From Nitrospinota bacterium (GTDB lineage: Bacteria > Nitrospirota > Nitrospiria > Nitrospirales > UBA8639), in the NCBI GenBank assembly GCA_022572725.1, contig JACZVJ010000017.1, forward strand, positions 1 to 38,842: 38,842 nucleotides of DNA. The letters run 5' to 3'. The position numbers and the translations under genes were made by a program. The stretch's first letter is position 1. Every line of letters starts with the position of its first letter. Of the stretch, positions 3,570 to 6,820 are shown in pieces. The notes beneath the pieces are model-generated. The model did no database searches and was not told where the DNA came from. It was given only the letters and a program-made list of their open reading frames with translations.

Positions 3570-3932
3570 TCAATAGCCCCCTCCCCCTTCCAGAAATGTG
3601 TTCCACCACTTTTGCCACCCCTTGGGGTCCTGGCCGTAGTTCTCCCCCGTGAGCTTGACCAAAGCTCCTTCGGCTTCATCGCGGACCTCGGCTTTTTGGT
3701 CCTGGAGTGCGGTAATGAGAGGATCAATGGCATTTTCGGCTGCATAGAGATCTCCGAGCTTCCCCAAGGCCTCCGCGGCTTCCTTGCGTGCCTCCCATTT
3801 CTCATTCTTTAAAGCGGCAACCCAATGATCGACCGTCGGCTCTTCCGCCTCACTCCGGAAAGTACTCGTGACCGCGAAACCTACCGCTCCCATAATCAGT
3901 AAGGAAATAATTACCCTTCGAGCCCTATTCAT
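3570..3932 (-). CDS. small exported HEAT-repeat protein
   Basis: 120 residues: an N-terminal signal-like helix (RRVIISLLIMGAVGFAV), then two HEAT-type helical repeats (HWVAALKNEKWEARKEAAEALGKL and PLITALQDQKAEVRDEAEGALVKL, each shown with its typical A/L spacing) and a Trp-rich tail. HEAT repeats bind protein partners; no enzyme function is implied. The start ATG at 3932 has AGGAGAAGG just upstream. The gene ends face to face with the gene at 2980. Confidence 0.8.
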   Translation of the reverse strand: MNRARRVIISLLIMGAVGFAVTSTFRSEAEEPTVDHWVAALKNEKWEARKEAAEALGKLGDLYAAENAIDPLITALQDQKAEVRDEAEGALVKLTGENYGQDPKGWQKWWNTFLEGGGGY

Positions 3933-4129: not shown

Positions 4130-4426
4130 TCACGGCTGGACTTTGGCAATGACCCCCTTTATTTCATCTTCGGTAAAGGCTCGAAGGGTCTCTGTACGAA
4201 CGTTGCCCAGGGAACATCCGCTCATCATCACCGCCGCCGCCGTGGCGTCATCTGGGGCTTCGAACACGATGACGCCATCGTATCGACCCATGGTCCAGTA
4301 AAAATTTTTCACCGATCCGCCTGCCTTTTGGATTGAGGACTTGAATTTCTCAGCCCGTTTGGCCGTGTCTTTCACGGTCCGAATTCCCTGGTCGGTCCAT
4401 CCAAATAGGGAGATAAACGTTGGCAT
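4130..4426 (-). CDS. GYD-domain protein
   Basis: 98 residues, almost exactly one GYD domain, a small ferredoxin-like alpha/beta fold often found in nitrogen and stress contexts but without an assigned reaction. Diagnostic positions are the N-terminal YxxLxxWTDQG-like segment (FISLFGWTDQGIRTVKDT), the central MGRYDGVIVFEAPDD that gives the family its name, and a C-terminal RTETLRAF strand. The start ATG at 4426 is set by AAAGGAGGT; a GTG directly before it is too close to that site. Cytoplasmic; probably monocistronic. Confidence 0.85.
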   Translation of the reverse strand: MPTFISLFGWTDQGIRTVKDTAKRAEKFKSSIQKAGGSVKNFYWTMGRYDGVIVFEAPDDATAAAVMMSGCSLGNVRTETLRAFTEDEIKGVIAKVQP

Positions 4427-4459
4427 CACCCACCTCCTTTGTTGAAAAATTGAAATTTA

Positions 4460-4526: not shown

Positions 4527-5075
4527 TTATTTCTTCCCTGAGGTGATTTCCTTGGCTCCGATTTCCGCTAACCCCGCCTGAGCACAGGCCTCATCGAGGT
4601 GACCGCCAGGTGCTCCGCCGACTCCAATGCCGCCAACAGTTTCCCCACCCATCTCAATGGGCAGGCCTCCTCCTAGGATGAGAATTTTCTCGTTCATGTC
4701 TCGGAGGCCCTGTATGGATGGGATTTTCGTGATAAGTTCCGCCAGGTGCATGGTGGACCGCCGCAGGCTCGCCGAGGTATAAGCTTTCCTGGTGCTACTG
4801 TCCGTCGTGTGGGGACCCGCGCCGTCTCCCCGCAACAGCACCCTAAGGTTCCCGCCTCGATCCACCACCGCCACACTCACGTGGTATCCCCCTTCCTCAC
4901 ATTTGACCAGCGCGGCGGCGGCAGCTTTTTTCGCCAGAGCTAACGGCAGCACTGTCTCCCGCGGCAGGTCCTGGGCTCCAACGGTACCCCAGGAACTTAG
5001 CACAATGAAGAACGAGCCCCATATCCCTATAAGCCAATGACTCCATAATCCTCGACCCCATTGCCCACCTTCCAT
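4527..5075 (-). CDS. exported GlcG/HbpS-family haem-binding-like protein
   Basis: 182 residues: a signal peptide (hydrophobic IGIWGSFFIVLSSWG, cleavage near VGAQD) followed by a GlcG/HbpS domain. Family features are LALAKKAAAAAL, VSVAVVDRGGNLRVLLR, the RKAYTSASLRRST helix, and the glycine-rich GGGLPIEMGGETVGGIGVGG ending in a DEACAQAGL helix. HbpS-type members bind haem or degraded cofactors outside the membrane; ligand and role here are unknown. ATG at 5075 has GGAGG a few bases upstream. It lies between two genes on the same strand and is probably exported to the periplasm. Confidence 0.85.
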   Translation of the reverse strand: MEGGQWGRGLWSHWLIGIWGSFFIVLSSWGTVGAQDLPRETVLPLALAKKAAAAALVKCEEGGYHVSVAVVDRGGNLRVLLRGDGAGPHTTDSSTRKAYTSASLRRSTMHLAELITKIPSIQGLRDMNEKILILGGGLPIEMGGETVGGIGVGGAPGGHLDEACAQAGLAEIGAKEITSGKK

Positions 5076-5125: not shown

Positions 5126-5878
5126 CTAGGGGGGAGTTTGGCCTTGGGCTTCCCCAGTCATGGGTACAAAGGCAACGGGGAGCACGGTGGTTTGTTCGTA
5201 TCCTTTTTCGGTACGGCGAATGACTACCAGGTCTTGCTGGAATTTTCCAATAGGGAGAATCAAACGGCCACCGATCGCAAGCTGCTCGAGGAGGGGTTTG
5301 GGAACATGGTCCGAGGCGGCCGTGACAATAATCCCATCGAAGGGCGCCTCCTCCGGCCAACCTTGATAGCCATCGCCCGTCCGCACCGTGACATTGTCAC
5401 AGCCGACTTCCTTGAGGGTTCCCGCTGCCCGCTCTGCCAAGGGTTCGACGATTTCAATGGTGAACACCTGATGGACGATTGTGGCCAGCACGGCCGCTTG
5501 ATACCCGGAGCCGGTTCCAATTTCGAGCACCTTTTTTTTACCCTGGAGCTGGAGGGCCTCCGTCATAAATGCCACGATGTAGGGTTGGGAAATCGTTTGT
5601 TCATATCCGATAGGCAGTGGACGGTCTTCATAAGCCATTTCAGCCTCTGCTTCTAGCACGAACCGATGACGTGGTATCCACCGTAAAGCTTCGATCACCG
5701 CCGGATCCTTGACACCCCGTGCCACGATTTGATCGTTCACCATTCGGTCCCGCTCTGCCTGTCGATCAAAGGGACGCGGGGATGGCCCAGTGCCTGTCCC
5801 TTGGCCAGTCCCCGGAAATAATAGCTGAATGCCCAAAAGAGCTGCGATCCATGATTGAACATGCCAACCTGCCAACAT
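5126..5878 (-). CDS. pcm: protein-L-isoaspartate O-methyltransferase with hydrophobic N-terminus
   Basis: 250 residues. Methylates isoaspartyl residues in aged proteins with S-adenosylmethionine so that they can revert to aspartate. Family motifs: MVNDQIVARGV near the start of the domain, PLPIGYEQTISQPYIVAFMTEAL, the SAM loop VLEIGTGSGYQAAVLA and a later GGRLILPIG. An extra segment of about 35 residues with a hydrophobic stretch (WIAALLGIQLLFPG) precedes the enzyme; it resembles a weak signal or membrane anchor but has no basic residues before it. GTG at 5881 is an alternative start; AGGAG lies upstream of both. Neighbours on the same strand are also exported. Confidence 0.88.
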   Translation of the reverse strand: MLAGWHVQSWIAALLGIQLLFPGTGQGTGTGPSPRPFDRQAERDRMVNDQIVARGVKDPAVIEALRWIPRHRFVLEAEAEMAYEDRPLPIGYEQTISQPYIVAFMTEALQLQGKKKVLEIGTGSGYQAAVLATIVHQVFTIEIVEPLAERAAGTLKEVGCDNVTVRTGDGYQGWPEEAPFDGIIVTAASDHVPKPLLEQLAIGGRLILPIGKFQQDLVVIRRTEKGYEQTTVLPVAFVPMTGEAQGQTPP

Positions 5879-6100
5879 CACAGAATTCTCCTGCTTTTCC
5901 AGCGCCAGTGTAGGGAAACCCGAGCTAAATGGCTAGTGGGCCAGTGCCTCAATAAATTGGGGAGGAATGGCACCGTTCTCCCCCATTGGGAGCCCTCCAG
6001 CCTTTGAAGGATTAGGGTTCGGTTTCCCTTTAGAATGAAGGTTTTTTCCGCCCCGATAGCTATGACCGGGAGTAATGAGGCAGGGGGGAAAGAGGGAGGC

Positions 6101-6820
6101 TTACTGTACCGCCCGGGCGACCAGAAGCGGTTGCCCGGTAAGCCCGTAATAGGCCTTATTCAGGGATTTAACTGGGGACACGTGCATAAGGAAAGGTGTC
6201 CGCCAATCCCCATCTCCAATATCCTGTTCTTCCGGAATGAAGATTCGATTGAGATGCTCAGAATAAGCCGCATTGATTTTTAGGGGGACCCCTCCAACTT
6301 TTCCGATAGTTCCCTTTTCGGTGATGGTCCCAGTAATAGACCGACCGTAAAAAATGGGATCACCCTTGGCCAGCGCGACAACGGTTAGTCCTACCATCGC
6401 CGACAGGCTATCCCCGAACATGGTGACTCCCGGGTAGGGGAACGTTAATTGGATGGTCCAAGAATCTGTCCTCAGGTGGGCGGCTTGGGATACCCGGGTA
6501 ATGGCTTGCTCAACGGCCTTCTGCGCAATGGGTGAGAATTGCCCTGGAGTCTTCAGGAATTGAACCTGCAGCCCATGGTGGTCTGCTCGTTCACGAAAGT
6601 TAATCACAACTTCCGTGACGACTCCAACGGGCTGATGCTGTTCATTGAGCGTCACTCCAAGGATGGGAACCGTTAGCTCACCAAACCAAGGTGTGAGGGT
6701 TGCCGGGCTGGCAAAAGTATCCGACCCTAAACACAGCACCACCGTAAGAAGTACGAGTATCTGTGTGAGATGAATTCTTACAGTCTTCATGTCCACTTGT
6801 TTAGATGATTTTTTCTTCAT
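6101..6820 (-). CDS. exported stand-alone Lon-like (S16) protease domain
   Basis: 239 residues. After a signal peptide (IHLTQILVLLTVVLCLG, cleavage near TFASP) comes a domain like the proteolytic part of Lon. The Ser-Lys dyad appears intact: S140 in GDSLSAMVGL aligns with the Lon nucleophile, and K181 in GKVGGVPLKINAA aligns with the catalytic Lys of the Lon GGxxxK motif, after the conserved TGTITEKGTIG strand. No AAA+ ATPase or PDZ domain is present, so substrates must reach it without ATP-driven unfolding. ATG at 6790 is an alternative start that gives a cleaner signal peptide. Upstream lies TATAAT. Substrate unknown. Confidence 0.75.
   Translation of the reverse strand: MKKKSSKQVDMKTVRIHLTQILVLLTVVLCLGSDTFASPATLTPWFGELTVPILGVTLNEQHQPVGVVTEVVINFRERADHHGLQVQFLKTPGQFSPIAQKAVEQAITRVSQAAHLRTDSWTIQLTFPYPGVTMFGDSLSAMVGLTVVALAKGDPIFYGRSITGTITEKGTIGKVGGVPLKINAAYSEHLNRIFIPEEQDIGDGDWRTPFLMHVSPVKSLNKAYYGLTGQPLLVARAVQ

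Follow-up and report, generated by a model that had tools for sequence, protein, structure and literature searches.

Among bacteria akin to Nitrospira, a lone Lon-type proteolytic domain without an ATP motor is apparently exported. In the window's branch, its gene is linked to that for a protein-L-isoaspartate O-methyltransferase (PCMT), a repair enzyme of aged proteins, and this linkage suggests that damaged proteins are dealt with outside the cytoplasm. Here, the window is the whole stretch of DNA analysed, the 38,842-nucleotide contig JACZVJ010000017.1. Our whole proposal is that an exported, single-domain, ATP-free Ser-Lys Lon protease and an exported PCMT form a damage-control set, and we give it an even chance of being right. 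Lon is the textbook ATP-driven cytoplasmic protease. A conserved family of exported bare Lon domains would therefore offer a minimal natural system for the Lon active site without the motor.

The window's ORF encodes a Lon proteolytic domain (MEROPS S16 / Pfam Lon_C), as the sequence-only reading had it. On the 239-aa protein, Pfam Lon_C scores 24.1 bits at residues 120–199, above its cut-off of 21.1. The same reading had described the protein as free of ATPase and PDZ domains, and Pfam agrees, finding in it no ATPase, AAA-like or PDZ domain and nothing else of note. The nearest solved proteins by sequence are Lon protease domains, with A. fulgidus LonB the best (1z0b, E 4.7e-8), and a family-profile search against the solved proteins again returns Lon protease domains (best E 9.6e-15).

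The fold leads to the same assignment. An AlphaFold2 model, for which the window protein was input along with 50 relatives, has a mean pLDDT of 90 and its best Foldseek matches are Lon P domains. Against such domains its Z scores range from about 17 to 22. By VIA-align over residues 47–232, they are 21.6 for B. subtilis LonBA (8dvh), 21.2 for the E. coli domain (1rr9) and 17.6 for A. fulgidus LonB (1z0e).

The domain make-up sets the protein apart from the named classes. With no ATPase or AAA-like module in the chain, it stands outside the Lon holoenzyme classes LonA, LonB and LonC, and the NCBIfam Lon models give it at most 33.8 bits where their cut-offs exceed 500. It also stands outside the YlbL/SepM class of PDZ-Lon proteins, since it has no PDZ and the NCBIfam SepM model scores 24.7 bits, far below the cut-off of 200. 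The features of the locus are collected in Table 1.

Table 1. Features of the Lon-type protease gene and its two downstream neighbours in the window.
Feature	Position	Strand	Basis
Lon-type protease ORF, predicted exported, 239 aa	6101..6820	(-)	ORF list, Pfam, relatives
Likelier start, second Met, codon 11	6788-6790	(-)	
N-terminal signal-like segment, residues 1-37	6710..6820	(-)	Sequence; helix 12-31 outside Lon fold in model; signal rule passed
Lon proteolytic domain, residues 47-232	6125..6682	(-)	Model range vs 1rr9 and 6on2; Pfam Lon_C at 120-199
Codon of catalytic serine S138 (sequence-only reading: S140, codon 6401-6403)	6407..6409	(-)	Alignment, conservation, spacing
Codon of catalytic lysine K181	6278..6280	(-)	Alignment, conservation, spacing
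PCMT, N-terminal hydrophobic extension; next gene downstream, 219 bases from Lon stop	5126..5881	(-)	Pfam PCMT 213.1 bits
HbpS-like protein, signal-like N-terminus; third gene of cluster	4527..5075	(-)	Pfam HbpS-like 118.3 bits

The bare domain recurs among relatives. A match is present in 51 of 59 relatives' genomes (own included), some of the matches being ordinary Lon proteins, and in 31 of 36 genomes of the window's own family (own included), with up to four full paralogs per genome. Restriction to the window's genome is thus ruled out by the relatives in the family genomes and in genome_contigs. The window's genome itself holds a second paralog at C210 (L004), 56% identical, as well as two full Lon proteins and RadA.

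Scanning genome_contigs with a profile detected 72 relatives among 102 pattern stretches, all missed by a single-protein scan of genome_contigs (0 relatives in 62 stretches). Nitrospirota-type titles go with 71 of these relatives, including two from Nitrospira moscoviensis (L141 and L145); the remaining one sits in a bin titled Nitrosomonas. Of 148 genomes drawn from the phylum, the 25 that match at E 1e-15 all belong to the window's order. As far as these searches reach, the stand-alone Lon family appears confined to one bacterial order.

The Nitrosomonas-titled relative, L093 (JAJFJH010000229.1), lies on a 3.8-kb contig of a metagenome bin and its nearest rows in the tree are Nitrospirales. 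Its label is probably a binning error. The tree placement of another locus, L085, was not used, its long branch being false and due to a mis-trimmed sequence.

The strongest clue to the substrates is that PCMT travels with the Lon gene in the window's branch and is once fused to it. PCMT is the next same-strand gene after Lon, or is fused to Lon, in 13 of 73 loci, namely the window, L076, L077, L078, L079, L080, L081, L083, L085, L086, L087, L088 and L140. The window's PCMT is near full length, covering positions 5–208 of the 210 in the Pfam profile.

The neighbour table came from crude ORF picking. No target was called at L134, the target slot was taken by an opposite-strand ORF at L129, L142 and L145, and a fused ORF merged PCMT into cluster 0 along with Lon. 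For this reason, tblastn from the PCMT side was used to recheck the link. Among the 30 loci fetched in this way, 10 have a same-strand Lon no more than 1.3 kb upstream and 11 have HbpS downstream.

The Lon-PCMT-HbpS linkage spans four genera (g1, g3, g6 and g7), and the Lon domains there share 57–67% identity with the window's. An extra gene stands between Lon and PCMT in g7 (G012). The outer genes differ between the PCMT-linked groups, which marks the linkage as a conserved cluster and not a by-product of overall gene order. The pairing is nonetheless not obligatory. PCMT orthologues are found in 43 of 57 genomes and those of G001, G009, G025 and G029 come without a Lon-family member, while 60 of the 73 loci, comprising most paralogs, have no PCMT adjoining Lon.

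After HbpS, on the same strand, the window also encodes a HEAT-repeat protein with a signal-like start (3570–3932) and a GYD-domain protein (4130–4429), both named by Pfam. Among the 30 PCMT loci, most of them about 3.7 kb, these two genes are found at the window's own only. A 344-aa ORF at 1845–2879 on the minus strand is presumably an IS30-type transposase, which it resembles.

At L085 (VYFB01000012.1, Nitrospira sp. SB0677_bin_15), Lon and PCMT are joined in frame within one 455-codon ORF. Pfam gives the fused protein 197.8 bits for PCMT and 17.5 bits for Lon_C, the latter below the 21.1 cut-off. Compared with L083 (93.7% identity), the fusion lacks a single block of 328 bases, made up of the Lon stop, the spacer and the hydrophobic N-terminus of PCMT, and no other base is missing. 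The fused PCMT now relies on the Lon N-terminus, as would be expected of two halves acting in one location.

This fusion is seen in one genome only, L014 (genome G023) being the same sequence as L085, and with a single assembly behind it the joint may be an assembly error. Against that, the deletion is the sole gap inside the stretch compared with L083. The fused protein brings the question of a joint Lon-PCMT function within reach of one construct.

Our proposal for the window's paralog is a damage-control set located in one compartment: the Lon protease, an exported PCMT and, often, an HbpS-like protein. The PCMT would methylate isoaspartate in aged exported proteins for their repair and the Lon domain would remove whatever stays unfolded. 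Without an ATPase the Lon domain has no means of unfolding proteins, and its expected targets outside the cytoplasm are stretches that are damaged, unfolded or flexible by nature. The sequence-only reading had named unfolded, damaged or specific exported proteins as the necessary substrates, a reasonable conjecture. The fold, the active-site residues, their conservation in the family, the gene linkage and the one fusion are computational results; protease activity, its substrates, the division of labour with PCMT and extracytoplasmic S-adenosylmethionine are inferred.

A further step is that the exported PCMT and the exported ATP-free Lon act together in Nitrospira relatives as a repair-or-destroy system, once as a fused polypeptide. 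We offer this only tentatively. If true, it would mean S-adenosylmethionine-dependent protein repair outside the cytoplasm.

The chief rival reading, a possible one that we would not favour, is a dedicated processing protease like SepM/YlbL. It would have one or few exported or membrane-anchored targets, its paralogs would differ in substrate, and PCMT would be merely a co-regulated envelope-maintenance gene. Such a division fits the paralog clades, whose conserved neighbours differ. In the family's other branches the neighbours are different ones and do not include PCMT. Loci of the clade of L091-L126 and G000:C210 (L004) have, among others, a HAD-like gene downstream of Lon and an HD-GYP-like gene in opposite orientation, both named from sequence appearance rather than a family search, and another paralog clade has universal-stress-like and glutamate-synthase-like neighbours.

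A precedent exists in YlbL, which, in the excerpted account, requires its S234 and clears a single membrane protein, YneA (PMC6051672). However, Pfam finds no PDZ or other recognition domain in the Lon protein that would select such a target, and no candidate substrate gene is common to the paralog contexts. The PCMT linkage and the fusion also favour damage over a single substrate. Between the two readings, we thus keep damage control as the preferred one for the window's branch.

The catalytic residues can be placed with some precision. The nucleophile is S138, because GDS138LS pairs with GDSAS of A. fulgidus LonB, S138 lying opposite its catalytic Ser in both the sequence and the profile alignments. 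Between S138 and K181 there are 42 residues, or 40 if counted from S140. The excerpted text of a Lon study likewise gives 42 residues between the catalytic Ser and Lys in LonA and LonB (PMC9569914).

In the sequence-only reading the dyad was S140 and K181. K181 keeps its place as the catalytic Lys position and S140 yields to S138, being ruled out as the nucleophile by the LonB alignment, the shorter spacing and its weaker conservation in a wider alignment. That reading had also counted a Ser shifted out of the active site as evidence against itself; by alignment, this is true of S140 and spares the protein, because S138 stands in the active site. The larger claim, an exported stand-alone ATP-free Lon-type Ser-Lys protease, is still the best reading and is strengthened by the family evidence, with its nucleophile corrected.

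The serine is S138 in all 73 family rows, and the lysine is K181 in all 71 rows with a letter there, the other two having a gap (L146, at a contig end, and L147). The Ser-Lys spacing equals 43 in 71 of 71 rows. S140 is likewise kept in all 73 family rows, and T163, in the active-site region, in 71 of 71 with a letter. The wider alignment separates the two serines: in its 68 rows, counted without L014, the duplicate rows L004, L005 and L006 and the fragments of L073, S138 is present in 67, K181 in 68 and S140 in 55. S138 would make the attack with K181 as the base, in a LonB-like Ser-Lys centre.

The RadA and ComM Lon-like domains are idle and serve binding or ring assembly. They are also among the structural matches of our model, but a catalytically idle fold with such a role is improbable here, as S138 and K181 are invariant at the exact Lon spacing and T163 is kept, all of which idle domains are expected to lose.

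One position of the centre varies. Just ahead of the Ser, 46 of the 73 rows have Glu, 25 have Asp and 2 have Lys, whereas LonB invariably has Asp there, as excerpted (PMC9569914). The window protein has D137 and so carries the LonB-type Asp, which holds for this protein and not family-wide. From this variation, the family centre looks like a variant of the LonB centre.

Predicted export of the Lon protein is well supported. Residues 1–40 lie outside the Lon fold. They include basic residues and a hydrophobic stretch, cleavage may occur near 36–37 (after A36 or S37), and M11 is a likelier start than M1. The model sets residues 12–31 apart as a helix, at low to middling confidence, ahead of a Lon fold starting near residue 46.

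A hand-made signal rule, asking for a basic n-region without acid, an uncharged hydrophobic 11-mer and small residues after it, was applied with neighbouring genes of at least 200 aa as controls. The window Lon protein passes, as do 40 of 71 family members versus 67 of 382 neighbouring genes. An earlier version of the rule gave 49 of 65 versus 76 of 504 but treated the starts unequally. By a plain hydropathy test, the N-terminal extension is hydrophobic in 70 of the 72 members with room for it. This test is also positive inside the mature domain, in 34/70 and 70/70 control stretches, and does not discriminate alone. The signal peptide claimed from the sequence draws its support from the segment outside the Lon fold and from the signal rule, and hydropathy by itself does not count towards it.

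The protein could instead be cytoplasmic, or held in the inner membrane by an uncleaved N-terminal helix. Some members do miss a clear A-x-A site, 29 of 72 having one, and 31 of 71 fail the signal rule. Even so, we find this quite unlikely. The extension stays hydrophobic in nearly every member though its sequence varies freely and it is no part of the Lon fold, and anchoring by an uncleaved helix would still place the Lon domain outside.

Export of PCMT is moderately supported as a prediction. The window's PCMT has a hydrophobic extension ahead of the usual start, and a lipobox-like motif follows the hydrophobic stretch in 10 of 30 PCMT orthologues. These N-termini point to putative exported PCMT lipoproteins in several genera. 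Unlike the Lon protein, the window's PCMT and HbpS do not pass the signal rule. The window's PCMT is the only strong one in its genome, with 213 bits where the next match has 37 bits over 55 positions.

Isoaspartate repair may thus be extracytoplasmic in Nitrospira relatives. PCMT requires S-adenosylmethionine, and we know of no supply of it outside the cytoplasm; this need is the main weakness of the Lon-PCMT pairing. The link raises the question of how extracytoplasmic proteins that are costly to replace are repaired or removed, and from where a methyl donor would come there.

Stand-alone Lon domains, ATP-free Lon proteases and exported PDZ-Lon proteins are already known. The archaeal exported S16-type COG1750 proteins are signal-bearing stand-alone Lon domains too, likened here by description only. 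Among open-licence PMC papers, we found nothing under the COG1750 term, and none that describes a bare Lon domain in the periplasm or as an exported protein, or a bacterial PCMT that is exported. One search there brought up only Lon released from dead cells and unrelated matters.

The oddity of an ATP-free Lon outside the membrane is also milder than the sequence-only reading stated, since three precedents are on record in the excerpted sources. YlbL works outside the membrane without an ATPase, on a membrane-anchored protein, and its Ser is required (PMC6051672). MtaLonC degrades unfolded but not folded proteins without ATP (PMC3391209). In a 2008 survey of serine proteases, Lon_C was the sole domain in 39 of 117 Lon_C proteins (PMC2605481).

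The window protein differs from each of its likenesses. A. fulgidus LonB (1z0b, 1z0e) is its best sequence match and has GDS at the catalytic Ser, 42 residues to the Lys and the same fold, but the window protein is without the AAA+ module and the membrane-anchoring insert and is predicted to be exported. The Gram-positive YlbL/SepM proteins also have a Lon domain outside the membrane without an ATPase, as excerpted (PMC6051672), whereas the window protein misses their PDZ and the S234-K279 spacing of YlbL is 45, compared with 43 here.

MtaLonC similarly has a Lon domain without ATPase activity (PMC3391209, excerpted), but it is described as a cytoplasmic hexamer (PMC3391209, PMC9569914) and has a large N-terminal AAA-like fragment, unlike the bare domain here, for which export is predicted. 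The single-domain proteins of the 2008 survey share Lon_C as the sole domain, but its excerpted text mentions no export or PCMT link for them and some may be RadA-like (PMC2605481).

The same order also has more distant, exported-looking Lon domains with GPSAG-like centres. In one distant exported-looking Lon-like protein, L072:3331-4014, Thr replaces the catalytic Ser and the Lys is kept. Two other exported-looking proteins, L069:3636-4550 and L074:966-1961, have a DUF4124-like segment, just below the Pfam cut-off, joined to Lon_C.
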